Of a DNA stretch of 47,542 bases, positions 10,312 through 28,166 are shown piece after piece. Origin of the DNA: Mesotoga sp. Brook.08.105.5.1 (GTDB lineage Bacteria > Thermotogota > Thermotogae > Petrotogales > Kosmotogaceae); contig NZ_AYTW01000059.1 in assembly GCF_002752635.1 (NCBI RefSeq), positions 1 through 47,542 of the forward strand, read 5' to 3'. A program made the position numbers and the translations under genes. The stretch's first letter is position 1; each line of letters starts with the position of its first letter. The notes beneath the pieces were generated by a model. That model did not search any database. It had not been told where the DNA came from and saw only the letters and a list, made by a program, of their open reading frames with translations.

Positions 10312-12783
10312 ATGAAAAGTACAATGCTAAAGAAGCTATCTTTTCTGATACTGTTCAGTGTAATCACAGTGACAACTTCATTGGCCGCTACAAATGAAAG
10401 TAGTTGCTTTCTTAAAATAGTTGCTGCAAATGACCTGGCGAAAACGGCGAGCGTTTATATAGATGGCAAGCTTGAAGGAACCCTCGAATCAGGGGAGTTG
10501 ACCATCTTCGATCTGGATGTTGGCAATCACTTAATAACACTCGATGGAGAGCTAATTGAAAAGTATGAACTAGAGGTAGTTTTCCAAAGCACGTATGAAT
10601 CAAAGCGAATAGATCTAGAAGCTAATCCGGGGAAAAGGGCAGTAAGGATAACATCCGAACCTTCCAATGCAGCTATTCGAATTGACAAGGAATGGCTAGA
10701 ACAGACAACACCCTGGCAGATTATTCTTGATGTGGGAAAGACCTATGAGATCGAGTTGTTCAAAGAACTATATGGTGGTAAAACACAATCTCTTTATATC
10801 CCTGATAAGGGAGAGATTATAATTCTAGATGTTGAAATACCAAAAGCAGATCCGCCCCTTAAGCCACGTCCAACATATCCCATAGACAAATCTGTCTGCC
10901 CTGATGAAATCGTAGTTGAGCTAGTATGGGAGTCACTTGATAATCCTCTGCAATATGAACTTCAGTTCGATGGTAAAGTGTATACGACTTCGTTTAGCAA
11001 TGCAAGATTCTACAAGCTAGAACGTGGTAAGACTTATTCCTGGAGAGTGACGGCAGTTAATAAATATGGCATGAGAACAACAAGTGAACGATATTCCTTC
11101 ACGGTTCAAGAGAACCGTGGTCCGGAGATTGCATTTGTATATCCTCAAAACGACAGTGATGATGTTTTTGCGGAAGAGTTGATCCTGAAGTGGGAAGTTA
11201 CGGATGCGGATGGAGATTCTATAACTTGTGATGTTTATTTTGGTGACAAGCCTGATTCATTAGAGCCAGTGAAATCACATACCACTTCGAACGAATACAT
11301 TGTAAAAGAATTGCAAAGAGGAAAACCATACTACTGGAAAATAGTTGCGACGGATAGTTATGGCGAAGTCAGCGAAAGTCTTGTGTATTCTTTTACTACT
11401 ATGGCAAACAGGCCTCCGATTGAACCATTTAATATTATTCCTGAAGACGGAATGGAAAACTTACCGGATTGTTTAACACTTGAATGGGACTGCACAGATC
11501 CTGACAATGACAATTTGACTTATGCAATATATCTGGGAGTAGATGCAGATTCCATGAATCAGATAGGCGAGACCACCAACAAGAATTTTGTCTTGAATGA
11601 TTTGACCAGGGGAACAACACACTACTGGAAAATCGTGGTCTTTGATTCCTTTGGGGCAAAAACCGAAGGACCACTAAATACTTTTATCACAAAGGCTAAC
11701 AAACCACCAGTTATTGATCCCAGTTCTGAAGTGTTTCTTAAAGAAACCGATCGAGATGTATTTGCGGAACTTAAATGGTTCTGTGAAGATCCAGATGACA
11801 AGCTGCTGTTATATGATGTATATCTTGGAGTTGATACAGAACCCTCATTGATTCTTTCGGATCATTATCTAACCACTTTGACCAAAGAAAAACTGAAATT
11901 CGGTACAACATATTACTGGCAAATTGTTGCCAAAGATGTACATGGCGGAATTTCTAAAGGACCATTGTGGGAATTTACAACGAAGAACCCTCCGAGCTAT
12001 ATTCCATCTGATATTGTTCCAAAGAGGGTGTTTGTGGAGAAAGGCAGCTTCACGATGGGTGACACGTGGGGTGGTGGATACGGTGATGAAAAACCAACCC
12101 ATACGGTCACGTTTACCTACGACTTCTACATTGGCAAGTATGAAACTACATTCGACGAGTACGACGCTTTCTGTGATGACACTGGCAGAAATAAACCTGA
12201 TGACGAAGGCTGGGGCAGGGGACAGAGACCTGTTATGAGGGTCAGCTGGTGGGATGCGATAGCCTACTGTAATTGGTTGAGTGAGAAAGAGAAACTCCCG
12301 AAAGCTTATGACACTAATGGCAATTTGCTGGACAAAGATGGAATAGTAACTACTGACCCGTCGAAAGTAGTAGGCTACAGACTACCGACAGAGGCAGAGT
12401 GGGAATATGCAGCAAGAGGTGGAAACAAGAGTAAAGGATACAAGTATTCCGGGAGCTATAAAGTAGATGAGGTTGCCTGGTATGTTGCAAACTCGGGGGG
12501 CAAGACGCAGGAAGTTGGTAATAAAGCACCTAACGAGCTGGGGCTGTACGATATGTCTGGAAACGTGTGGGAGTGGTGCAGTGATTGGTATAATAACACC
12601 TATTACTATAACACTCCAAAGACGAATCCGTACAACAATAGTGGTTCCGATCGGGTGATTCGTGGCGGTAGCTGGGGCTGGGGCTACAGTTCGCCGGACG
12701 CACGTGTGGCGCGTCGCAGAGGCAACTCGCCCACTAGCACGGACGTCAACATCGGGTTCCGTATTTGCAGGACGGTGTTCTGA
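10312..12783 (+). CDS. Secreted PEGA/FN3-like protein with C-terminal FGE-sulfatase (C-type-lectin fold) domain, DGR-like 3' end
   Basis: ATG 10312 follows GAGGTGG at 10301-10307. The product has 823 residues: a signal peptide (about 1-26, ending LAA), PEGA-like region (30-185) closely matching the 8521 gene, four FN3-like repeats (about 190-560) each ending Y-(Y/H/S)-W-(K/R/Q)-(I/V), and an FGE-sulfatase domain (about 568-823) with MGDTWG, GYRLPTEAEWEYAARGG, LYDMSGNVWEWC and RGGSW. The paired catalytic cysteines of true formylglycine-generating enzymes are absent from the segment after RGGSW, so enzymatic activity is unlikely. The fold is the one used by DGR variable proteins for ligand binding. 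The last 45 codons compare with the 12917 gene as a variable repeat would (see the variable-region entry). Inferred role: an exported, possibly diversified receptor or adhesin. Confidence 0.8.
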   Translation: MKSTMLKKLSFLILFSVITVTTSLAATNESSCFLKIVAANDLAKTASVYIDGKLEGTLESGELTIFDLDVGNHLITLDGELIEKYELEVVFQSTYESKRIDLEANPGKRAVRITSEPSNAAIRIDKEWLEQTTPWQIILDVGKTYEIELFKELYGGKTQSLYIPDKGEIIILDVEIPKADPPLKPRPTYPIDKSVCPDEIVVELVWESLDNPLQYELQFDGKVYTTSFSNARFYKLERGKTYSWRVTAVNKYGMRTTSERYSFTVQENRGPEIAFVYPQNDSDDVFAEELILKWEVTDADGDSITCDVYFGDKPDSLEPVKSHTTSNEYIVKELQRGKPYYWKIVATDSYGEVSESLVYSFTTMANRPPIEPFNIIPEDGMENLPDCLTLEWDCTDPDNDNLTYAIYLGVDADSMNQIGETTNKNFVLNDLTRGTTHYWKIVVFDSFGAKTEGPLNTFITKANKPPVIDPSSEVFLKETDRDVFAELKWFCEDPDDKLLLYDVYLGVDTEPSLILSDHYLTTLTKEKLKFGTTYYWQIVAKDVHGGISKGPLWEFTTKNPPSYIPSDIVPKRVFVEKGSFTMGDTWGGGYGDEKPTHTVTFTYDFYIGKYETTFDEYDAFCDDTGRNKPDDEGWGRGQRPVMRVSWWDAIAYCNWLSEKEKLPKAYDTNGNLLDKDGIVTTDPSKVVGYRLPTEAEWEYAARGGNKSKGYKYSGSYKVDEVAWYVANSGGKTQEVGNKAPNELGLYDMSGNVWEWCSDWYNNTYYYNTPKTNPYNNSGSDRVIRGGSWGWGYSSPDARVARRRGNSPTSTDVNIGFRICRTVF
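12643..12780 (+). other. Candidate DGR variable repeat VR1 (3' end of the 10312 gene)
   Basis: The region runs from GGTTCC (12643) to the stop codon. It encodes RGGSW then about 30 residues ending NIGFRI. Compared codon by codon with 14042-14104, frame words such as TCG CCC ACT (12727-12735), ACG, CGC and CGT ATT are identical. The codons between them differ as NNC/NNC pairs (GGC/AGC, AAC/GTC, AGC/GCC, GAC/AGC, GTC/AGC). This is what adenine mutagenesis of AAC codons in a template repeat produces. Confidence 0.55.
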
Positions 12784-12790
12784 TTTACAC

Positions 12791-12852
12791 TTTAGCCTTT
12801 TTACATTTTTGCCCTTTGCTGAGTCTCCGAGCACCGGGCACGGAGTAGCCCG
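12791..12852 (+). other. Conserved element downstream of VR1: TTTAGCCTTT plus GC-rich hairpin
   Basis: TTTAGCCTTT (12791-12800) and GAGCACCGGGCACGGAGTAG (from 12829) both recur after the second FGE gene, although the sequence between them is different. CGGGC and GCCCG flank ACGGAGTA and can form a 5-bp stem. No T-run follows, so an ordinary terminator is unlikely. A hairpin just beyond the variable repeat is a known requirement in studied DGRs. Confidence 0.5.
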
Positions 12853-12916
12853 CAAGCACTAGAAGACCAATAAGTTGAAATGATTTGTTTCACATAACTT
12901 CACTCGAAAGGTGAAC

Positions 12917-14116
12917 ATGATGAAAGATCTATTAAGGGAACAACTAATCAGAATAGTCCAAGAGTATGGAGCAGACATACTAAAAAACCCAAAAAAGGTG
13001 AATAGTCTCCTTAAAGACTTCTGTCCTGAAGAATCAAGGGGAAAGATATTTGCAATCACCCAGTGCCTGAGAGAAGGAATACATAGAGAGCTTATAGATT
13101 CAAGCAAGAGAAAGACGATAAGAATAGAGATGAGCAGACTCATAAGAAAGATACATGATAACTTTGGACTGAAAGAAGATATATCCAGATGGGCAGTGGA
13201 AAGCATCGCTTTGGCTCTGCGGATAATAAGCGAAAAGGAAACTGTAATAACAACCGAGAAATCTCAAGTAATCGAACAAAAGTTTGTAGAAACGCATAAG
13301 GCAATATCCCATGAACGGATTGTTGAGGAAAGAGAAAAAAGAACAACAAACGGAGACGAGCTAATCCATGTCGAGAGAGGAAGCTTCATAATGGGAGACA
13401 CATGGGGAGACGGTTTCCCATACGAGAGGCCAACGCATGAGGTTACGCTCACATATGACTTCTACATAGGCAAGTATCCAGTGACTTTTGAAGAATATGA
13501 TATCTTCTGGAGTGCGACAAGAAAAAGCAAACCGGATAGCGAAAAATGGGAAAAATGGGGAAGAGGAAGGAGACCGTTAATAAACGTGAGCTGGAACTAT
13601 GCAACAGCCTACTGCAACTGGTTGAGTGAAAAGGAAGGAATTCCTAAGTCGTATGATGATAAAGGTAACCTCCTGGACAAATATGGAAAGACGACTACAG
13701 ACATAACTGACGTGGTTGGTTACAGGTTACCTACTGAAGCCGAATGGGAATACGCTGCAAGGGGAGGAAACAAGAGCAAGGGATACAAATATTCTGGTAG
13801 CGATAATGCAGACGATGTTGCCTGGTATGCTTCTAACTCAAAAAGCATGACACAGGAAGTAGGGACTAAGGTACCTAACGAACTGGGTCTGTACGATATG
13901 AGCGGCAATGTATGGGAGTGGTGTTCGGATGTGTTTAGAGACTACTCTAGTTCCCCACAAACAAATCCATACAACAGCATTGGTTCCTGTCGGGTGTTTC
14001 GCGGTGGCAGTTGGTACTGCAGAATGTCTTTCGTATGTGTAGCTTACCGCGACAGCGTCTCGCCCACTGCCACGAGCAGCGGTCTGGGCCTCCGTATTGC
14101 AAGGGCTTTACCCTGA
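12917..14116 (+). CDS. FGE-sulfatase-domain protein with helical N-terminal domain, no signal peptide, DGR-like 3' end
   Basis: The start is ATG 12917 (or 12920), just after GAAAGGTG (12906-12913). The in-frame GTG 12911 lies inside that ribosome binding site. The product has about 399 residues. Residues 1-105 form a hydrophilic helical domain (LIRIVQEYGADIL, LLKDFCPEE, ISRWAVESIALAL) of a kind seen at the front of bacterial signalling proteins. A charged linker follows, and then an FGE-sulfatase domain (about 150-399) with MGDTWG, GYRLPTEAEWEYAARGG, LYDMSGNVWEWC and FRGGSW. No signal peptide or membrane segment is visible, so this paralogue is probably cytoplasmic, unlike the 10312 product. 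Two cysteines follow RGGSW, roughly where catalytic cysteines lie in true FGE, but the paralogue lacks them and the segment is hypervariable. Inferred role: diversified binding protein. Sulfatase activation is not supported. Confidence 0.75.
   Translation: MMKDLLREQLIRIVQEYGADILKNPKKVNSLLKDFCPEESRGKIFAITQCLREGIHRELIDSSKRKTIRIEMSRLIRKIHDNFGLKEDISRWAVESIALALRIISEKETVITTEKSQVIEQKFVETHKAISHERIVEEREKRTTNGDELIHVERGSFIMGDTWGDGFPYERPTHEVTLTYDFYIGKYPVTFEEYDIFWSATRKSKPDSEKWEKWGRGRRPLINVSWNYATAYCNWLSEKEGIPKSYDDKGNLLDKYGKTTTDITDVVGYRLPTEAEWEYAARGGNKSKGYKYSGSDNADDVAWYASNSKSMTQEVGTKVPNELGLYDMSGNVWEWCSDVFRDYSSSPQTNPYNSIGSCRVFRGGSWYCRMSFVCVAYRDSVSPTATSSGLGLRIARALP
13982..14113 (+). other. Candidate DGR variable repeat VR2 (3' end of the 12917 gene)
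   Basis: This matches VR1. GGTTCC-nnT-CGGGTG-nTTCG at 13982 aligns with 12643, and TCG CCC ACT at 14060-14068 aligns with 12727-12735. Between 14042 and 14098 I count 17 first- or second-position differences from VR1 and 6 third-position ones. In the upstream conserved block (12373-12455 versus 13719-13801) nearly all differences are synonymous. VR2 is two codons shorter than VR1 after RGGSW. Confidence 0.55.
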
Positions 14117-14122
14117 TTATGT

Positions 14123-14168
14123 TTTAGCCTTTACTGCGGCTGTGAGCGCCGGGCACGGAGTAGCCGGC
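14123..14168 (+). other. Conserved element downstream of VR2: TTTAGCCTTT plus GC-rich hairpin
   Basis: TTTAGCCTTT is at 14123-14132, and GAGCGCCGGGCACGGAGTAG starts at 14144. They are the same pair of blocks as after VR1. Here GCCGG and CCGGC form the stem, so a pairing is kept although the stem sequence differs from the VR1 copy. It ends 3 nt from the 3' end of the convergent recombinase gene. Confidence 0.5.
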
Positions 14169-14170
14169 TG

Positions 14171-14764
14171 TTATAAATTCAGTTCCACATAGATATCGTT
14201 CAGCTGCTCCTGGGTAATTCCTATATAGCGCAGAGTTATTGCCGGAGAAGAATGGTTCAACATCTTTTGAATGTATTCCAGAGCCACGCCCTTTTTGTAC
14301 AGGTGGTAGCCGAACGTTTTTCGAAGTGTATGTGTTCCGATCCCATCATCCAAACCAACCATATTGGCGTATCTATTTAACATTTGCCAGGCGGCTATTC
14401 TTGTTATTGGTTGTAGCGTGCCGTCAGCTGTCTTACGGGATGAGAATACAGGATCATCAGGATTGGGACTTCCCAGGGAATCGTAGTAGAGTTTCAACGC
14501 TTCGGCGACCGACCTGTTTATCATAAAGCTCTTTATCTTTTTGGTCTTAATCTCCACAACATTCAACTGGTCTCCTGACTTCAGCAGTCTTCCACCACCG
14601 TTAATGAAACTGCTCCACTTAAGGGCGAGAATATCTGAGATTCTCAGTCCGGTGTTAATACCCAGAGTGAACAGAAGGAGATCCCTGTAGTTTGATTCAC
14701 CCTTCATAATAGCCTTCATCGCATCGATTTTCTTCGAATCGCGTATCGGCTGGACTTCCTTCAT
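14171..14764 (-). CDS. Minimal tyrosine recombinase / integrase
   Basis: ATG 14764 is preceded on the minus strand by GAGGTG. The 197-residue protein carries a full tyrosine-recombinase active site: R41 (GLRISDIL), a lysine at about 73-76 (EIKTKKIKSF), H145-x-x-R148 (HTLRKT), H171 (MLNHSS) and Y180 (LRYIGI). It is about 100 residues shorter than XerC/XerD because it lacks the N-terminal SAM-like core-binding domain, and it begins directly in the catalytic domain. Such short catalytic-only recombinases act as integrases or resolvases in some bacteria. The partner site is unknown. It is convergent with the second FGE gene and upstream of a WGR-like gene on the same strand. All key residues are present, so it is probably active. 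Confidence 0.85.
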   Translation of the reverse strand: MKEVQPIRDSKKIDAMKAIMKGESNYRDLLLFTLGINTGLRISDILALKWSSFINGGGRLLKSGDQLNVVEIKTKKIKSFMINRSVAEALKLYYDSLGSPNPDDPVFSSRKTADGTLQPITRIAAWQMLNRYANMVGLDDGIGTHTLRKTFGYHLYKKGVALEYIQKMLNHSSPAITLRYIGITQEQLNDIYVELNL

Positions 14765-15152: not shown

Positions 15153-15378
15153 TTGAGGCCTCCGTGTCTGAATTCAATTATTTAACATAAGTAGATAATA
15201 TCACATATTATGTAAAATACAAAATCGAAGAGAGCAAACAGAAGAGTTATGGTTTCGAATGAAGCCTTTACCAGGAGTGGGATAGAAGAGAACAGATGAA
15301 TTTAACATAATACTCTTAAGTTAAATTGAAGTTGGTTATTAGAATGCTTGAGTTGGATTTCTGTTTAGTAAGAAAGTA
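15153..15378. other. AT-rich intergenic region with two inverted repeats between WGR gene and CRISPR array
   Basis: No gene is seen. ATAATAT-CAC-ATATTAT (15195-15211) is a perfect palindrome in the presumed promoter region of the WGR-like gene and could be an operator. AATTTAAC (15299-15306) and GTTAAATT (15320-15327) form a second 8-bp inverted repeat. It lies about 50 nt before the last CRISPR repeat fragment, at the leader-distal end of the array. Confidence 0.45.
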
Positions 15379-15399
15379 GTTTCCATACCACTATGGTTC

Positions 15400-15665
15400 A
15401 TATAAGAGCCGTCCTCCGTTGACCGTCCAAGAGCATGGACCCGTCCTCCGATAAGATCAAAGACCAGATCCTGACCAAGAGCACGTCAGGATGACCAGTT
15501 GAGTTGGTTCATACAACCTAACGTCCTGCCCCTAGAAAGCTTCTCCCTCCTGGCGAAGCCAGCCATGCGTCCCCGGATGTTTCTCCGGGCATTGCGTCCG
15601 CCAATGGTTCTCGGCGCATCACTTCCCGGGATGATCTTCCCGGCACAGCGTCCTGCCGAAGGCAG
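15400..15665. repeat. CRISPR-embedded hairpin module, copy 1
   Basis: This is a 266-nt unit starting ATATAAGAGCCGTCCTCC and ending CCTGCCGAAGGCAG. Its right half is a chain of short GC-rich hairpins (CCTGGCGAAGCCAGC, CCCCGG...CCGGGC, CCGGGA...TCCCGG, CTGCCGAAGGCAG) joined by linkers containing TGCGTCC or GCGTCC. Read in the reverse direction these are the same hairpins found at 46.6 and 47.3 kb. Confidence 0.9.
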
Positions 15666-15820
15666 CGATTCATACCACTATGGTTCTCACGCAACGAGAA
15701 ATGCAGTTTACAGGTTTAAAGATGGGTTTTGGGTTTCCATACCACTATGGTTCTCACGCAACCATCTCAATGCAATTGACCTAGAAACACCTAAAGTAGG
15801 TTTCCATACCACTATGGTTC

Positions 15821-16086
15821 ATATAAGAGCCGTCCTCCGTTGACCGTCCAAGAGCAAGGACCCGTCCTCCGATAAGATCAAAAACCAGATCCTGACCAAG
15901 AGCACGTCAGGATGACCAGTGGAGTTGGTTCATACAACCTAACGTCCTGCCCCTAGAAAGGTTCTCCCTCCTGGCGAAGCCAGCCATGCGTCCCCGGATG
16001 TTTCTCCGGGCATTGCGTCCGCCGATGATCCTCGGCGCATCACTTCCCGGGATGATCTTCCCGGCACAGCGTCCTGCCGAAGGCAG
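15821..16086. repeat. CRISPR-embedded hairpin module, copy 2
   Basis: Same length (266 nt) and junctions as copy 1, with a handful of substitutions (for example AAGAGCAAGG, GAAAGGTTC, and GATGATCCTCGG in place of AATGGTTCTCGG). Copies are about 97-98% identical by eye. Confidence 0.9.
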
Positions 16087-16175
16087 CAATTCATACCACT
16101 ATGGTTCTCACGCAACTTAGTAAGACAGAGCGTAAAAGATACCGAAGAATTCATGTTTCCATACCACTATGGTTC

Positions 16176-16441
16176 ATATAAGAGCCGTCCTCCGTTGACC
16201 GTCCAAGAGCAAGGACCCGTCCTCCGATAAGATCAAAGACCAGATCCTGACCAAGAGCACGTCAGGATGACCAGTTGAGTTGGTTCATACAACCTAATGT
16301 CCTGCCCCTAGAAAGCTTCTCCCTCCTGGCGAAGCCAGCCATGCGTCCCCGGATGTTTCTCCGGGCATTGCGTCCGCCGATGGTTCTCGGCGCATCACTT
16401 CCCGGGATGATCTTCCCGGCACAGCGTCCTGCCAAAGGCAG
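16176..16441. repeat. CRISPR-embedded hairpin module, copy 3
   Basis: This is 266 nt with the same junctions. It differs from copy 1 at a few positions (CCTAATGTCC, CCGATGGTTC, CTGCCAAAGG). The last change breaks one base pair of the terminal CTGCCGAAGGCAG hairpin. Confidence 0.9.
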
Positions 16442-16660
16442 CGATTCATACCACTATGGTTCTCACTTAACCAGGATATTTACTACGGATATATATGATG
16501 CTATTGTTTCCATACCACTATGGTTCTCACGCAACAAGTGGCTCGCAGAGCGTACATGCGCCAATACTACAGGTTTCCATACCACTATGGTTCTCACGCA
16601 ACATGCATACAAGAGTTCTTGTGTGTATATACGTGCATAGTTTCCATACCACTATGGTTC

Positions 16661-16926
16661 ATATAAGAGCCGTCCTCCGTTGACCGTCCAAGAACAAGGA
16701 CCCGTCCTCCGATAAGATCAAAGACCAGATCCTGACCAAGAGCACGTCAGGATGACCAGTTGAGTTGGTTCATACAACCTAACGTCCTGCTCCTAGAAAG
16801 GTTCTCCCTCCTGGCGAAGCCAGCCATGCATCCCCGGATGTTTCTCCGGGCATTGCGTCCGCCAATGGTTCTCGGCGCATCACTTCCCGGGATGATCTTC
16901 CCGGCACAGCGTCCTGCCGAAGGCAG
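16661..16926. repeat. CRISPR-embedded hairpin module, copy 4
   Basis: This is 266 nt with the same junctions. Private changes include AAGAACAAGG, CCTGCTCCTAG and CCATGCATCC. It is the copy nearest the regular part of the array. Confidence 0.9.
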
Positions 16927-19900
16927 CGATTCATACCACTATGGTTCTCACGCAACCGCTCCGTACCGAAACCTTTAGCATCCTTAACGCGTGTTTCCAT
17001 ACCACTATGGTTCTCACGCAACTTGGCGCTGCGGTAGTATGAATTCCTGTAAGTACCAGGTTTCCATACCACTATGGTTCTCACGCAACTCGTGAAGGTC
17101 AGACCTTTCTTTGTCTGCAGTGTGTGTTTCCATACCACTATGGTTCTCACGCAACCAAACTCCGTCTAATTCCTTTTCTAACCACCCCGAGTTTCCATAC
17201 CACTATGGTTCTCACGCAACTCCTATCGCTCAGCTCACGCAGTCTTTCCCATGTAGTGTTTCCATACCACTATGGTTCTCACGCAACTCAAGTGCTTGGG
17301 AATACTGCTACTACTCTGGATTATGGTTTCCATACCACTATGGTTCTCACGCAACTCAATCATCTCTCATCCCATATAAACTTACTTGCATACGTTTCCA
17401 TACCACTATGGTTCTCACGCAACGAGCGATGACGACGATGACATAGTAAGTGTCTTCTGGAGTTTCCATACCACTATGGTTCTCACGCAACCAGAGTAAC
17501 CCCAATGAATATGCCCGCAGTATAATGGGTTTCCATACCACTATGGTTCTCACGCAACCACCGCGTGCGCTATCAACGTCACCAACAGACATATAGGTTT
17601 CCATACCACTATGGTTCTCACGCAACGTAGAAAATCCTCTGACGGCACTACCGTGGACGATAAGTTTCCATACCACTATGGTTCTCACGCAACGTGGAGA
17701 GATTGCCGTAATGCTTGCAAACTTGAGTGTTTCCATACCACTATGGTTCTCACGCAACCACGGCCTTAACCTTGGCTAACGGAACCAAAATTCGTTTCCA
17801 TACCACTATGGTTCTCACGCAACTCTACAAGGTGATGTGGTTTAAGTCCTATTCCATCAAGTTTCCATACCACTATGGTTCTCACGCAACACAGAACCTG
17901 ATGAAGTCACAGAAGACGAAGAATAAAGGTTTCCATACCACTATGGTTCTCACGCAACGGGTTGATGGTAGGGGACGTGTAAACGTCCCTCTCTAGTTTC
18001 CATACCACTATGGTTCTCACGCAACCCTTTGTGGTGAGCATTTGTGCTCTTTTGCCAAATCTCGTTTCCATACCACTATGGTTCTCACGCAACTCGACAT
18101 CGGCGATAATTGAAAACGGTGTAGAACGTTTCCATACCACTATGGTTCTCACGCAACAAGATGCAGCTTTGATGAACTGCCAGAGAGAGAATTGTTTCCA
18201 TACCACTATGGTTCTCACGCAACTCAGACAAGAAAGATGCAGAAGTGGATCGAAAATCACGTTTCCATACCACTATGGTTCTCACGCAACATGACTGTGT
18301 TCAGAGCTTGGCAGATGAAAAGGCGTTTCCATACCACTATGGTTCTCACGCAACGAATCAGAGGTTCTTTATGAAAGTTTGGTTCTCAACGTGTTTCCAT
18401 ACCACTATGGTTCTCACGCAACCATGGTTAGGGGGCTTTCAGTCTTTCATACACCAAGGGTTTCCATACCACTATGGTTCTCACGCAACACTCATTTGCT
18501 GTTGTAATTTTTAACAATCATTTCGGTTTCCATACCACTATGGTTCTCACGCAACGGGCCTAGGGAAGACAGTCCAGGCAATAGCAAGTATCCGTTTCCA
18601 TACCACTATGGTTCTCACGCAACCCCCATCGGCCCAACGGTTGTAACTCATCAAGTTTCGTTTCCATACCACTATGGTTCTCACGCAACGCTCCGTTTTC
18701 CTGTCTCTTCCACGATTCGATGTTACGTTTCCATACCACTATGGTTCTCACGCAACCCAGCCTCTTCTCGAGCTCATGCCTTTCGATAATTGAGTTTCCA
18801 TACCACTATGGTTCTCACGCAACGAACGTCCGCATTGGTGAGACACGTTCGGGACGGCCAAGTTTCCATACCACTATGGTTCTCACGCAACCAACATACT
18901 TGCCAGCCCATACATGACAGGCGACAACGGTTTCCATACCACTATGGTTCTCACGCAACAATGAACGGCAAGAAAGGCTACGTAATCAAGGATTTCAGTT
19001 TCCATACCACTATGGTTCTCACGCAACGATTCCGGGACGTACTTTATTCCGGCCCAGCAATCTGTTTCCATACCACTATGGTTCTCACGCAACGCAACAG
19101 GCACGGCGCAAGGATAATGTGGAGACTAGTTTCCATACCACTATGGTTCTCACGCAACGTGATATGTGGAAGCACCTAATAACAGAAGCATATAAGTTTC
19201 CATACCACTATGGTTCTCACGCAACAGTTGTGTTCCCAAAGTTTGCAGAGCGCAAAAGCCCGTTTCCATACCACTATGGTTCTCACGCAACAAAGAAATT
19301 TGACAAGGCGACCTTCAAAGCAGATAACGTTTCCATACCACTATGGTTCTCACGCAACGTGCTGAAACACTTGCCAGAGATCGCTGCGGTCGAAGGTTTC
19401 CATACCACTATGGTTCTCACGCAACCAGTCGTTCCTTGCAGCCCTAATCACAGCAGCTCAACTTGTTTCCATACCACTATGGTTCTCACGCAACTTAACG
19501 AGCCGCTTGAAGTTGTGTTCCCAAAGTTTGCGTTTCCATACCACTATGGTTCTCACGCAACGCTTGCATACTTGCGAAATGCAATCAAGGCCATAGAGGT
19601 TTCCATACCACTATGGTTCTCACGCAACGCAGAGAAACGGAACACCTGAAGGCTGGACGCTTTCGTTTCCATACCACTATGGTTCTCACGCAACTGAAAA
19701 TATGATCCATTATCTCGTATTCGCAGACACGTTTCCATACCACTATGGTTCTCACGCAACAGCCGGGAGGGCCGGTGGCGGTGAGCAATTCATTGTTGGT
19801 TTCCATACCACTATGGTTCTCACGCAACATCCGGATATAGAGGGAAGGTTTCGCAGCGACCTCATCGTTTCCATACCACTATGGTTCTCACGCAACAAGG

Positions 19901-23333: not shown

Positions 23334-26300
23334 CTATTGTTTTCTAATACTCACTTTCCCATCTTGAATCTGAATCTCATGGTTGCGAATAAGCAAGCTG
23401 ACTTCATTGTCTATGACATTCGAGATGTTCGTTCCCGTCCTCTTGTAACCGAATAGTCTTGCCACATCTGTCTTCAAGTCCTCTCTATCCATTGTGAACG
23501 CGTTTTTAAGACAGAGTTTTATGGCCTCTTGAATCTCCACAGGCGGGATGTGTTCGGGTTTTCTCATATCATCTCTGCTGGCCGATCGTCTTGGAAGTAT
23601 CCTTTCGTTGCGCTTGAGCAAAAAATCTCCCTGCAGAACATATGAATCCCTTGGGAATTGTGCCATAACATACTCCCGTAAACTCTTACGGGAGACATTC
23701 CCGGATTTTGTATACATATCCCAGTTTACCTGGAGTAAATCAGGGCGAGTATCGAAAAGCATGATAATCCTCGACACTACCTCATCCAAATGAACCGGGG
23801 CCTCTTTTTCAATTATCGCCCCAATAAGGCTATACAATTGAATAACTTTCTGCAATGAGACTAATTTGGTTAGGTCATGAGGTGAGAATCTTTCATACAA
23901 TGGAAGGGTCGTCTCTTCTCTTTTTATTGATGGTAAAGGATTTTCGACTATCAGCTCATCATTGATGTTAAGTGCTTCGGTATTTTCTGAAACGGAGCCA
24001 GCAGCTCCTATCTCTGCAATGACTCTCTTGATTTCCGAACTTCTGTCGAAGATCCAATCTCTTGACCAGATTCTGATGATCTTCCAACCCAGATTCTCAA
24101 GGACTTGTTGGCGTAGCCTGTCTCTATCTCTTGCAGTTCTCGCGGAGTGATACATGGCTCCGTCGCATTCAATTCCTGCGACATACCTTCCAGGATGTTC
24201 ATTGTCAACAATTGCCAGGTCTATCCTGTAGCCGGAGCATCCCACCTGTTTGTGCACATTGAACCCGCGTGCTGTGAGTTCTTCATATACCTCCTCTTCA
24301 AAGGGCGATTCAAATTCGCCGCCAGTGTTTTCGGTCTCTCTCAAAAGGAATTCCCTGCTTCCTCCCTCTTCAGCATAGTTCAAATATTCTCTTAGGGCTC
24401 TTACTCCTGGGGTCTGTATTTCAGCAGAGATGTCTGCTCCTCTTATCGAACTTACAACAGTGACTTTCCTCTTGGCTCTCGTTATCGCAACGTTGAGTCG
24501 TCTTTCTCCTCCATTTTTGTTTAGAGGACCAAAGTTCATGGTCAGCTTTCCCGAAGCATCTCTACCATATCCAATGCTGAAGATCATCTCATCTCTCTCA
24601 TCACCCTGAACATTCTCAAGATTCTTCACGAAGAAAGGTTCAACTTTATCCTCGCCGAAGAAATCCTCGACAGACTGATCCTGGGAACGAAGCTCTTCAA
24701 TTCGATCAAGAATCGCTGTCTGCTGAGCTTCACTGAAGGCGACTACTCCTAATGAAACACCTGCCTTTGTCCTTGCATGGCTCATAACCATCTCGGCAAC
24801 TCTGCGAGCTTCTTCAATGTTCTTTCTGCTCTTTGCTCTGTCATAAACTCCATTCGAAACATATTCAAAGCATATTCCGGAATCAAGCCCATTAAAACTG
24901 CTGCTGGGGAAAGTGCTGAGTCTATTCATGTAAAAGTGATAGTTTGAGAAGGCTATCAATGATTCGTGACGGCTTCGGTAATGCCAGAGAAGTTTCTTTT
25001 CTGGAAGACCAGCCGCGCTACATTCGTCGAGAATGCTTTCGAGACTCTCCAGATCGTTCTCTTCATCTGTCATTTCGGCTTCATCGGGTTCAGAGATTCT
25101 GAAGAAGCTTGTGGGAGGAAGCTGTTTGTTATCTCCAACAACTACTACCTGCTTTGCCCTCATGATTGCTCCCACTGAGTCTTCCGGAAATACCTGGGAG
25201 GCCTCGTCAAAAATGGCGACATCGAATTTGAACTTTTCCGGATCGGTGAATACGCTAACTGAAAGAGGGCTCATCATCATGCATGGTTTCAGAACTTGAA
25301 GGAGGTTTGGCGTTTCCGAAAATAGTCTTCTGATTGATTTATTTCGTCTCTTCTTGGCTATCTCTCTTCTCAGAATAGATGTCTCGGCACTTCCAGAATT
25401 CACAAGATTGGAAACCGGAATCCTCTGGGCGAGGAAAGAAGCCAGTCTCTTTCTGGCATACAGCTGTTGTTTTGAATCAAGTAACCGGAACTCCTTAACA
25501 AGAAGGTTGTGGTCACTTGTGGAGAATGAGTTTAGAACCTCATCCTTTGCGTAGAGCTCCGACAAGAGGTTGCTATAAAAACCCTTTAGGAAGACTTTGT
25601 CAAGCACATCGGATTCAACTTCACTTTCCCTCGCTCTTTCGAGAAAGTCTTCCAGTCCAGCCTTCTCAAGAAAAATGATACTCTTCTTCATTGAAAGCCA
25701 GTCATCAAGTTTTGGAAGCGACTCTTGTAGTCTTTGGACAAAATCTTCAAAGCCTTCAAAGTCCGAAAGAGACTTGCCGTCAGAAAATGGTTCCGTGATA
25801 ACCATATCGGATACTTCCTCTAGATCCTTGAAAAATGAATTTGTTGCCGTGATTGCACGCTTCACCCAGTCACTCCTGCCTGATATTGCCTGCTGGTTTT
25901 GGTTTCCTTTCGGCAATATAGAAAAGAATGAGAAGTATTCAATCAGCTCTATTAGGTCTGATTCACTACTTCTCAAAGCTTTCTCCAAGTTATCATAACT
26001 CTCGTTGAAGCTCTCGATTATCCCTTTTGAGCTTTCAAGAAGACTTATCAACTCTTTCTCGTTGCAGGCTTTTGTCATTAGTCCACATTGGGAGAGAACT
26101 CTTTCCGACTTCTCCAAATCTTCTACGATTCTCTCGTAATTTAAAACTCCATCATATTTAAGCGAAGAAAGGATGCGGACATTCTTCTTATAACCTCCAA
26201 ACAACCTACCAAAAAAGCTGTTGTATGAGCTCGAAAACTTTCTTTGAAGCTCATTGTGATTCAACTGAAGAATGGCCGGTCGATATCTCGTCAGAAGCGA

Positions 26301-28166
26301 GACGGTCTCCTCAAATAACTTGACAGATTTGAGAGCATTAGAGATTCCCAAAAGTGAGCGAAGAGCATCAAACTGACGGGTGACTTCACTGTGAGAAACC
26401 TTGACCTCATCTATCGCGCTCTTTAAGTTAATGAAAGAATCTCCATAACTAGATGGAAGTTCTCTCTTAATTGTTGAAACATGAGAAAGAACCTCCTCTG
26501 CCAACTTCAAGGCCTTTTCTTCGGCCGAACTTCCGGACTCAAACAAGTCAAGAATCGTTGAAATCCTAGAATTTGCATATTCGAGTTCCTTACTGATAGA
26601 CGATCTCCACTCAAGGGATGTTTCCTCGCCTATCTTCCTTAGTTTTCCTATAGTGTCTCTTATCTTCGTCAGCGATTGACGAATGCGCATTACGAAAACG
26701 GCATCAGGAGCAACTGCCTTGACTTTGTTAAGGACATCCTTCTTATGGTTGCGATAAATTTCGGCGTGGCGCTTCAAGTTGTCAAGATTGTTGATAATCT
26801 TGTCCAGTTGATCATGCGTGAGATCTTGTAGTTGTGCTACATCAAAACTCACAAGATCTACGTCATGCAAAGCTGCCAGATTGCCGTGAAGCTCAAATGC
26901 TGAAATCTCAAGAGAAGTTCTCTTTTCGTGCAGTCTTCTAACATAGCTGTTGAGTCTTTCTCTTATCTCCTTGAGTCTAGAGAGTTCACGCTCCAGGCTT
27001 TTCGTATCTACAGCATGGTTGTTAGCTTCATTTAGCACTCGTTCCAGCTCGTCCAGGACCACTCTCTTCCCTGTTTTCTTACTGTGAAGCTCCAGGCAAA
27101 AATCTCCCAATTCACAATCATCCAGACGGCGCTTTACAACTTCGAGTGCTGCCATTTTCTCGCTTACGAAGAGGACTCTTTTACCCTGGCTCAGGGACTC
27201 CGCAATAATATTCGCTATCGTCTGACTCTTTCCAGTCCCGGGAGGTCCCTGTATCACGAGGTCTTGACCGCTTTTCACGGCAAGGATAGCCTCTTGCTGA
27301 CTCGAGTCGGCATCTAGTATCTGATAGCAGTTGAGAGGATCGTTTTCTACATCCAAATCTGGAAGCTCGTCGTGTTCATTATCTGGTGCAATCAACGGCT
27401 TCCCTTCTGCAATTGTTCTCAACACAGAGTTTTCGAATATCATGTCTTCATAGTTCTCAAGGTCTTTGTACATGGCAAGCTTGGCAAAAGAGAAGACCCC
27501 TAAAGCAACGTCTTCAATAACCGACCAGCCCTCGATCGGTTCAATTAGCTTTCTGACTTTTACAAATAGATTTCTTAGGGTCGACTCCTCAAGCGACATT
27601 TCCTGATCATAAGTAGACTCCAGGTCAAGGCCAAATTCTTGCAGCTTTTCAGAAAGTGTTGGATTAAGTACAATGTCATCATCGATGATCCTTACGGAAT
27701 AGGGTGAGGCAATTGTCTCGCGGCTAATGGAAACTGGAACAAGGAGTAAAGGTGAAATCACAAAGCTCTTGTTATAATCTACTTCTTTCCACTTGAGGAA
27801 ACCAAAAGCCATAAAAAGGGTATTGATTCCCATTTCCTCGTAAGAAGTCCTCGACTTGAGTTTTAGTCTATTGAGAACAAGGTTCATTTCCTTTTCTTCA
27901 CGGTCAGCCTGTATCTGGTTTGCTTTAAGGGAAATAGTGATTTTATTCTCTTGCTCTTCATCATCTTCTGGAGGAATGGGAATGAAGCTCATCTGTTTTT
28001 CTTGGAGAACGATCTTATTGAAGATCTCGCTGCTTGAAGGGTTTATGAGCATCAAATTGCTCGTCTTGCTGGTCCTGAAGTTGATTAATCTGTTTCTCAT
28101 TGTGAGATCTAGCAAAGCTTTCTTCCACTTGTCGATCTTAACGGAAACAGCGTCATTGTTTTCCAT
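23334..28166 (-). CDS. DUF4011-type superfamily 1 helicase with vsr-like nuclease and DUF3320 C-terminus
   Basis: ATG 28166 follows GGAGGG on the minus strand. The product has 1610 residues. N-terminus: KIDKWKKALLDLTMRNRLINFR is typical of DUF4011. The SF1 ATPase is split: Walker A at about 305 (QGPPGTGKSQTI), a long coiled-coil insert at about 370-900, then Walker B at about 985 (FDEAS), VVVGDNKQLPP, NVQGDERD and LNVAITRAKRKV. At about 1290-1380 is a PD-(D/E)xK/vsr-like nuclease (GYRIDLAI ... GIECDG ... W-K-I-I-R-I-W-S), followed by a C-terminal DUF3320-like region. Proteins of this build are frequent in defence islands and act on nucleic acid, but the exact role is not known. All motif residues appear intact. 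The neighbouring AbiE remnant and CRISPR array support a defence context. Confidence 0.85.
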   Translation of the reverse strand: MENNDAVSVKIDKWKKALLDLTMRNRLINFRTSKTSNLMLINPSSSEIFNKIVLQEKQMSFIPIPPEDDEEQENKITISLKANQIQADREEKEMNLVLNRLKLKSRTSYEEMGINTLFMAFGFLKWKEVDYNKSFVISPLLLVPVSISRETIASPYSVRIIDDDIVLNPTLSEKLQEFGLDLESTYDQEMSLEESTLRNLFVKVRKLIEPIEGWSVIEDVALGVFSFAKLAMYKDLENYEDMIFENSVLRTIAEGKPLIAPDNEHDELPDLDVENDPLNCYQILDADSSQQEAILAVKSGQDLVIQGPPGTGKSQTIANIIAESLSQGKRVLFVSEKMAALEVVKRRLDDCELGDFCLELHSKKTGKRVVLDELERVLNEANNHAVDTKSLERELSRLKEIRERLNSYVRRLHEKRTSLEISAFELHGNLAALHDVDLVSFDVAQLQDLTHDQLDKIINNLDNLKRHAEIYRNHKKDVLNKVKAVAPDAVFVMRIRQSLTKIRDTIGKLRKIGEETSLEWRSSISKELEYANSRISTILDLFESGSSAEEKALKLAEEVLSHVSTIKRELPSSYGDSFINLKSAIDEVKVSHSEVTRQFDALRSLLGISNALKSVKLFEETVSLLTRYRPAILQLNHNELQRKFSSSYNSFFGRLFGGYKKNVRILSSLKYDGVLNYERIVEDLEKSERVLSQCGLMTKACNEKELISLLESSKGIIESFNESYDNLEKALRSSESDLIELIEYFSFFSILPKGNQNQQAISGRSDWVKRAITATNSFFKDLEEVSDMVITEPFSDGKSLSDFEGFEDFVQRLQESLPKLDDWLSMKKSIIFLEKAGLEDFLERARESEVESDVLDKVFLKGFYSNLLSELYAKDEVLNSFSTSDHNLLVKEFRLLDSKQQLYARKRLASFLAQRIPVSNLVNSGSAETSILRREIAKKRRNKSIRRLFSETPNLLQVLKPCMMMSPLSVSVFTDPEKFKFDVAIFDEASQVFPEDSVGAIMRAKQVVVVGDNKQLPPTSFFRISEPDEAEMTDEENDLESLESILDECSAAGLPEKKLLWHYRSRHESLIAFSNYHFYMNRLSTFPSSSFNGLDSGICFEYVSNGVYDRAKSRKNIEEARRVAEMVMSHARTKAGVSLGVVAFSEAQQTAILDRIEELRSQDQSVEDFFGEDKVEPFFVKNLENVQGDERDEMIFSIGYGRDASGKLTMNFGPLNKNGGERRLNVAITRAKRKVTVVSSIRGADISAEIQTPGVRALREYLNYAEEGGSREFLLRETENTGGEFESPFEEEVYEELTARGFNVHKQVGCSGYRIDLAIVDNEHPGRYVAGIECDGAMYHSARTARDRDRLRQQVLENLGWKIIRIWSRDWIFDRSSEIKRVIAEIGAAGSVSENTEALNINDELIVENPLPSIKREETTLPLYERFSPHDLTKLVSLQKVIQLYSLIGAIIEKEAPVHLDEVVSRIIMLFDTRPDLLQVNWDMYTKSGNVSRKSLREYVMAQFPRDSYVLQGDFLLKRNERILPRRSASRDDMRKPEHIPPVEIQEAIKLCLKNAFTMDREDLKTDVARLFGYKRTGTNISNVIDNEVSLLIRNHEIQIQDGKVSIRKQ

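Follow-up and report, generated by a model that had tools for sequence, protein, structure and literature searches.

The window, by which we mean the whole 47,542-nt stretch of DNA analysed here, is contig C59 of the host genome (2.99 Mb in 61 contigs, completeness 100%). It carries two neighbouring genes, W1 and W2, both ending in FGE domains, as the initial annotation had proposed. The features of the locus are listed below, with DGR denoting a diversity-generating retroelement and the repeat boundaries taken from alignment and per-column counts.

10312–12783, + strand: W1, an ORF of 823 aa with a C-terminal FGE/C-type-lectin domain and a well-preserved DGR-type variable repeat
12640–12750, + strand: W1 variable repeat (AGT ... 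AAC)
12751–12783, + strand: invariant 3' end of the W1 reading frame (ATC GGG TTC CGT ATT TGC AGG ACG GTG TTC TGA)
12784–12865, + strand: W1 3' element, a TTTAGCC tract and stem-loop, 90% identical to the genus consensus over 87 nt
12911–14116, + strand: W2, an ORF of 401 aa with an FGE/C-type-lectin domain and a degraded DGR-type variable repeat
13979–14083, + strand: W2 variable repeat (ATT ... GGT)
14120–14168, + strand: shortened W2 3' element
14171–14764, − strand: tyrosine recombinase of 197 aa (PF00589, 91.8 bits), adjoining the W2 element

Further along, the window contains a large CRISPR array (15370–19400; repeat GTTTCCATACCACTATGGTTCTCACGCAAC, about 49 copies), whose left end is interrupted by four near-identical 300-nt stretches (97–98%), as well as a gene at 23334–28166 for a 1610-aa protein with DUF4011, AAA_11/AAA_12, and REase_MTES_1575 domains. 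This helicase-nuclease could be a defence gene.

The FGE domain of W1 spans residues 570–819 (Pfam PF03781, 187.9 bits) and is preceded by a PEGA domain and FN3-like repeats (Pfam PEGA and fn3), with a likely signal peptide, judged by eye, at the N-terminus. Its top sequence match in the PDB is 2y3c, T. denticola variable protein 1 (TvpA; E=7.6e-35), in an alignment that runs through the variable repeat (RGGSW...GFR). By this sequence match, which we judged to be enough, the W1 domain is assigned to the fold class of TvpA, a Treponema DGR variable protein. In W2, the FGE domain occupies residues 149–398 (PF03781, 183.2 bits), and no Pfam family matched the N-terminal part of about 100–150 residues. 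The variable repeat lies at the 3' end of the FGE domain in both genes, as located by Pfam and the PDB sequence match, and neither protein has a known effector domain. By analogy with TvpA-type DGR proteins, which are thought to do so, the W1 and W2 proteins would most likely bind variable ligands. The sixth FGE domain of the host genome (L007, G000:C38:9101-9838) contains one in-frame TGA and looks like a pseudogene; FGE genes with one TGA each also occur in two relatives.

The two repeats differ in their preservation. The W1 repeat keeps the third base of the inferred template in 13/15 AAY columns and has two additional codons (GGC TGG) 3' of TGG. The W2 repeat keeps that base in 11/15 AAY columns, has no unmutated AA left, and shows several non-A substitutions in its 5' half. 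Against the inferred template, differences are mainly adenine-limited in W1 and only partly so in W2. The W1 repeat is well preserved, whereas that of W2 is best read as a decayed repeat in which ordinary substitutions have gathered; the differences that had been set against adenine mutagenesis (CTG/ATC, TTC/CTC, GGG/GGC) are mostly due to these substitutions in W2.

The initial annotation had described an inverted substitution pattern in the two tails, with 17 differences at codon positions 1–2 and 6 at position 3 in the last 20 codons from 12709 and 14042. This count is reproduced for 19 codons, whereas for 20 the TGC/GCA codon raises it to 19 and 7. Two coordinates also needed correction: the variable blocks truly start at 12640 and 13979, and the second of the compared core stretches starts in frame at 13718, not 13719. 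Between the full blocks of W1 and W2, 26/98 non-A sites differ, and third positions differ in 16/44 codons as against 68/135 upstream (p=0.07), which makes the inversion weak for this pair; W2 alone gave no significance against any other gene. Moreover, FGE-like domains are often variable near RGGSW...GFR, and had only these two genes been seen, most of their differences could be explained by ordinary diversifying selection on ligand-contact residues, without a retroelement. Because the pair is weak on its own, the FGE genes of relatives were collected and aligned.

The resulting alignment comprises the 21 genes that share the 3' block, namely W1, W2, one gene of a sister genus, and 18 genes that belong to seven other species of the genus; it covers one genome per species. 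In this set, which spans eight species of the genus plus the sister genus, the block extends over ~38 codons and includes hypervariable codons in which positions 1 and 2 show all four bases, whereas position 3 is nearly fixed, as C or T by column. In the ACG and AGC columns, it is the A that varies. Among codons variable at positions 1 and 2, the median third-base diversity was 0.27 in the block versus 0.71 outside (p=3e-8, 21 genes), and the same contrast was obtained with one gene per species (p=2e-6). Columns for this test were chosen by variability at positions 1–2 only, which avoids leaning on the template; the latter was inferred from the repeats themselves, and the choice of A-sites draws on the same data. 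In the AAY columns of seven core genes, the pairwise difference was 0.65/0.65/0.15 at positions 1/2/3. Once the 21 family members are compared, the inverted pattern thus far exceeds what chance would give. Selection on amino acids cannot fix third bases as C or T by column while positions 1 and 2 randomise, nor would it homogenise neighbouring synonymous sites between diverged genes, and the diversity of 0.71 was measured in codons of these genes that lie outside the block and vary just as much. We therefore rejected ordinary diversifying selection on third-base behaviour and regard it as highly improbable.

Between species, the non-A sites of the block are 90–95% identical in the best-preserved genes, whereas 37–60% of their upstream third positions differ. 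In the pair G002:C402 and G007:983842, third positions differ by 37% upstream and by 7% in the block (p=4e-5), and the block differs at 23/34 A-sites versus 5/98 other sites. For W1 and G002:C402, the corresponding values are 48% upstream and 11% in the block (p=5e-6), with 17/34 A-sites versus 8/98 other sites differing. Across the family, variation is adenine-limited and the non-adenine sites are homogenised. These A-site differences, along with the per-column third-base behaviour, lend strong support to the earlier suggestion of adenine mutagenesis of AAC codons. As judged from the aligned sequences, the block pattern is that of retrohoming from one AAC/AAT-rich template combined with adenine mutagenesis. 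The inferred template would read about RGGSWNNNATNxRVANRNNNSPTNTNNNLGFRI. Ordinary orthologous FGE genes differ at 11–44% of third positions between species of the genus, and because the block third positions (7–11%) are no more diverged than these, the rewriting would have taken place around or after the species split.

The same figures bear on whether the targets are still live, that is, served in trans by an RT (reverse transcriptase) and template located on an element such as a plasmid or phage that lies outside the assembly or is carried only by other strains, with W1 and W2 still being diversified. Compared across species, non-A sites in the block agree at least as well as ordinary orthologs do, and the rewriting would accordingly not be ancient; the third bases kept in W1 also favour current diversification, and other DGRs are known to act in trans (PMC10907252). 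On the other side, the block is frozen in one pair of orthologs, G004/G009 (0/34 A-sites and 1/98 other sites differ; 96.7% identity upstream), which as a single pair is thin evidence for inactivity. Block exchange between paralogs occurs as well: G004:C21 and C63 differ at 3/34 A-sites and 5/101 other sites, although they are 26% different upstream, which shows that repeat-to-repeat recombination also happens.

The block is followed by a low-diversity 3' end. CGT and AGG are invariant in 21/21 genes, and columns 352–357 show low diversity except for a TGC/GCA alternation. In W1, this segment (12751–12783) occupies the position that, in DGRs, belongs to the initiation of mutagenic homing, and we infer a corresponding role for it.

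The hairpin element that had been noted 3' of both genes is real and accompanies FGE genes, on their 3' side, in seven genomes; in one of these, G007, two further copies adjoin a tyrosine recombinase. It consists of a tract, TTTAGCCTTTTTAC, and a stem-loop, which in W1 has an inner stem at 12835–12839/12848–12852 and the loop ACGGAGTA at 12840–12847. Most copies of the full element, of 50–60 nt, are predicted to fold into a hairpin of about −25 to −35 kcal/mol, whereas the W1 element, with a broken outer stem, folds at −15 kcal/mol; two pairs of the hairpin are changed on both sides. This conserved stem-loop may have a role in homing. Placed some 60 nt or more beyond the 3' end of the repeat, it has an 8-nt ACGGAGTA loop and a multi-part stem, which do not match the hairpin downstream of the repeat in phage DGR targets, which has a 7–10 bp GC-rich stem and a 4-nt GRNA loop (PMC3240598). 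The element had no Rfam match at the gathering score, and the only weak Rfam match nearby, to AdoCbl-II, was below threshold and on the other strand.

The W2 copy is cut short at GGAGTAG, and its right half (CCGGCTGTTATAA...) aligns with a recombinase-gene flank and not with the FGE element. Compared with G007, it looks like a recombination junction. The adjoining 197-aa recombinase shows ~50% identity to plasmid integrases of Geobacillus, has 90% identical copies only in G007, and is probably a neighbour of the DGR targets, not part of them. In G007, a full element stands at the end of a restriction-like gene beside the same recombinase, twice. Such a junction with a tyrosine recombinase, the travelling of the 3' element with the block, and the near-identical blocks of G004:C21 and C63 would all suit a history in which donors with a live DGR passed on the repeat segments and 3' element, through recombination or horizontal transfer, and no diversification ever took place in this lineage. 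Yet nearly all genes carry A-site variants of their own, block and flanks together were seen only in the bacterial family of the host, and no donor was found, the four template loci that we located in other phyla (below) having a different second half. We consider such an acquisition quite improbable.

The window itself yielded no RT, Avd, or template, in agreement with the initial annotation, which had concluded that the targets must be served in trans or be relics and had proposed a genome-wide search. In that search, the host genome yielded two RVT_1 matches, both of group II intron type (TPQGGVISP), with a GIIM maturase domain on the one that was scanned; it has no RT that carries a [LIVMFA]GxxxSQ motif and lacks a maturase domain. 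Likewise, no template repeat nearly identical at non-A sites was found in the host genome, a 61-contig draft from which a small RT/template locus could be missing, or in 103 genomes of the class. BLAST of the W1 and W2 tails against the host genome returned, beyond chance matches, only each other's 3' element, and the inferred template matched mainly FGE-gene copies in the 103 genomes (up to 85% identity), along with weak matches.

No DGR RT or template that matches the W1/W2 block was found in the host genome or in nine related genomes, and the only DGRs in the 103 class genomes are two phage-type systems with a different template. Fetched RTs of the bacterial family are of group II type by motif, except those of G002:C212 and G006:C277, a classification that covers the fetched RTs, with the remaining RT matches sharing length and score with classified ones. 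Among the fetched RTs of the closed genome G007, in which three genes bear the block, only group II-type motifs occur. Among the viral contigs (viral_contigs), two patterns from the first half of the template had no match, an exact pattern of its second half matched neither there nor in genome_contigs, and a 16-mer, TCGAGCGCCGGGCACG, matched 15 viral stretches. We rejected viral FGE genes (at most 47% identity), FGE relatives in phage records (below 40%), and plasmid records (only distant FGE genes) as close sources.

An RT and template of the right kind are therefore absent from the host assembly and from all related genomes searched. Because differences between species and paralogs concentrate at the inferred template adenines, this points to loss or absence of the machinery, and not to absence of a DGR history. 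The draft state of the host assembly leaves room for an element acting in trans, but the genus members, closed G007 included, have no DGR RT save the two phage-type ones, and the template patterns searched in viral contigs found nothing template-like; together with the frozen pair, this makes continued service in trans unlikely.

We consider it probable that W1 and W2 are instead orphaned, relic target genes of a DGR. Their C-type-lectin-like domains would have ended in variable repeats that were rewritten in the past by a DGR RT, (i) which copied an AAC/AAT-rich template with errors at adenines and (ii) whose mutated copy homed into the 3' end of each target gene. Rewriting would have occurred in this lineage, and the RT and template would later have been lost or have stayed on an unsampled mobile element. 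The targets would now evolve as ordinary genes, with W2 more decayed than W1.

Among known systems, the TvpA-type DGR of T. denticola is similar in its FGE/C-type-lectin targets, in its AAC-codon repeats at the 3' end, in having several targets per genome, and in the remote and orphan targets seen where a genome is without the core (PMC4891356). Target genes with neither RT nor template repeat are thus already known from T. denticola isolates (PMC4891356). There, however, close strains carry the RT and template that explain the orphans (PMC4891356), whereas no genome of the W1/W2 genus has a matching core, and the W1/W2 template, unlike that of T. denticola, is known by inference only. What is new here is a family-wide case without a matching core in the genomes searched, in which the template is inferred from the targets alone.

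The two phage-type DGRs of the same genus (L097 in G002:C212 and L098 in G006:C277) resemble W1 and W2 in their FGE-like variable repeat and have an RT with IGALTSQ and a template beside it; the bAvd accessory protein (PF22296) was found only in L097. However, their template reads RGGNWNNGSNARSGLILNLNNEPTNRNNNIGLRAA, with no match to the W1/W2 block, and the phage protein that they target is of a structural type. Of the first 20 differences between variable and template repeats in L097, 14 fall at template adenines. A 29-mer pattern from the inferred template found only four loci in genome_contigs (257 Gb searched), one each in Elusimicrobiota and Marinilabiliaceae and two in one Kiritimatiellae MAG (L316–L319). 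Each of the four stretches also carries an RT with the DGR motif IGNLTSQ. The templates begin like ours (RGGSWNNNATN.R..), but they differ in the second half and belong to other phyla.

A further parallel is Thiohalocapsa PB-PSB1, in which DGRs diversify conflict-system sensors with C-terminal CLec/FGE domains, some of them fused to TIR (PMC10907252). It parallels W1 and W2 in its C-terminal CLec/FGE sensor domains and incomplete loci, and it shows action in trans, but its RTs and templates are present in the genome (PMC10907252). Two relatives of W1 and W2 (L109, G004:C23; L113, G009:C25) join a TIR domain (PF13676) to an FGE domain that bears a variable block of DGR type, a sensor-effector layout as in DGR-diversified conflict systems.

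Even in a genome with neither RT nor template, DGR targets are thus recognisable and their template can be deduced; RT-anchored DGR surveys would miss such targets. More tentatively, and with some doubt on our part, sensor-like genes throughout the genus may once have been diversified by a chromosomal DGR, whose RT and template have either disappeared from all sampled species or sit on an unsampled mobile element shared between species, with the template still readable from the surviving targets. If the loss is real across the genus, these genes would offer a natural case of what becomes of hypervariable receptors once the mutator has gone. With a mobile mutator, they would be a case of a shared diversifier that acts on chromosomal sensors, some of them TIR-linked.
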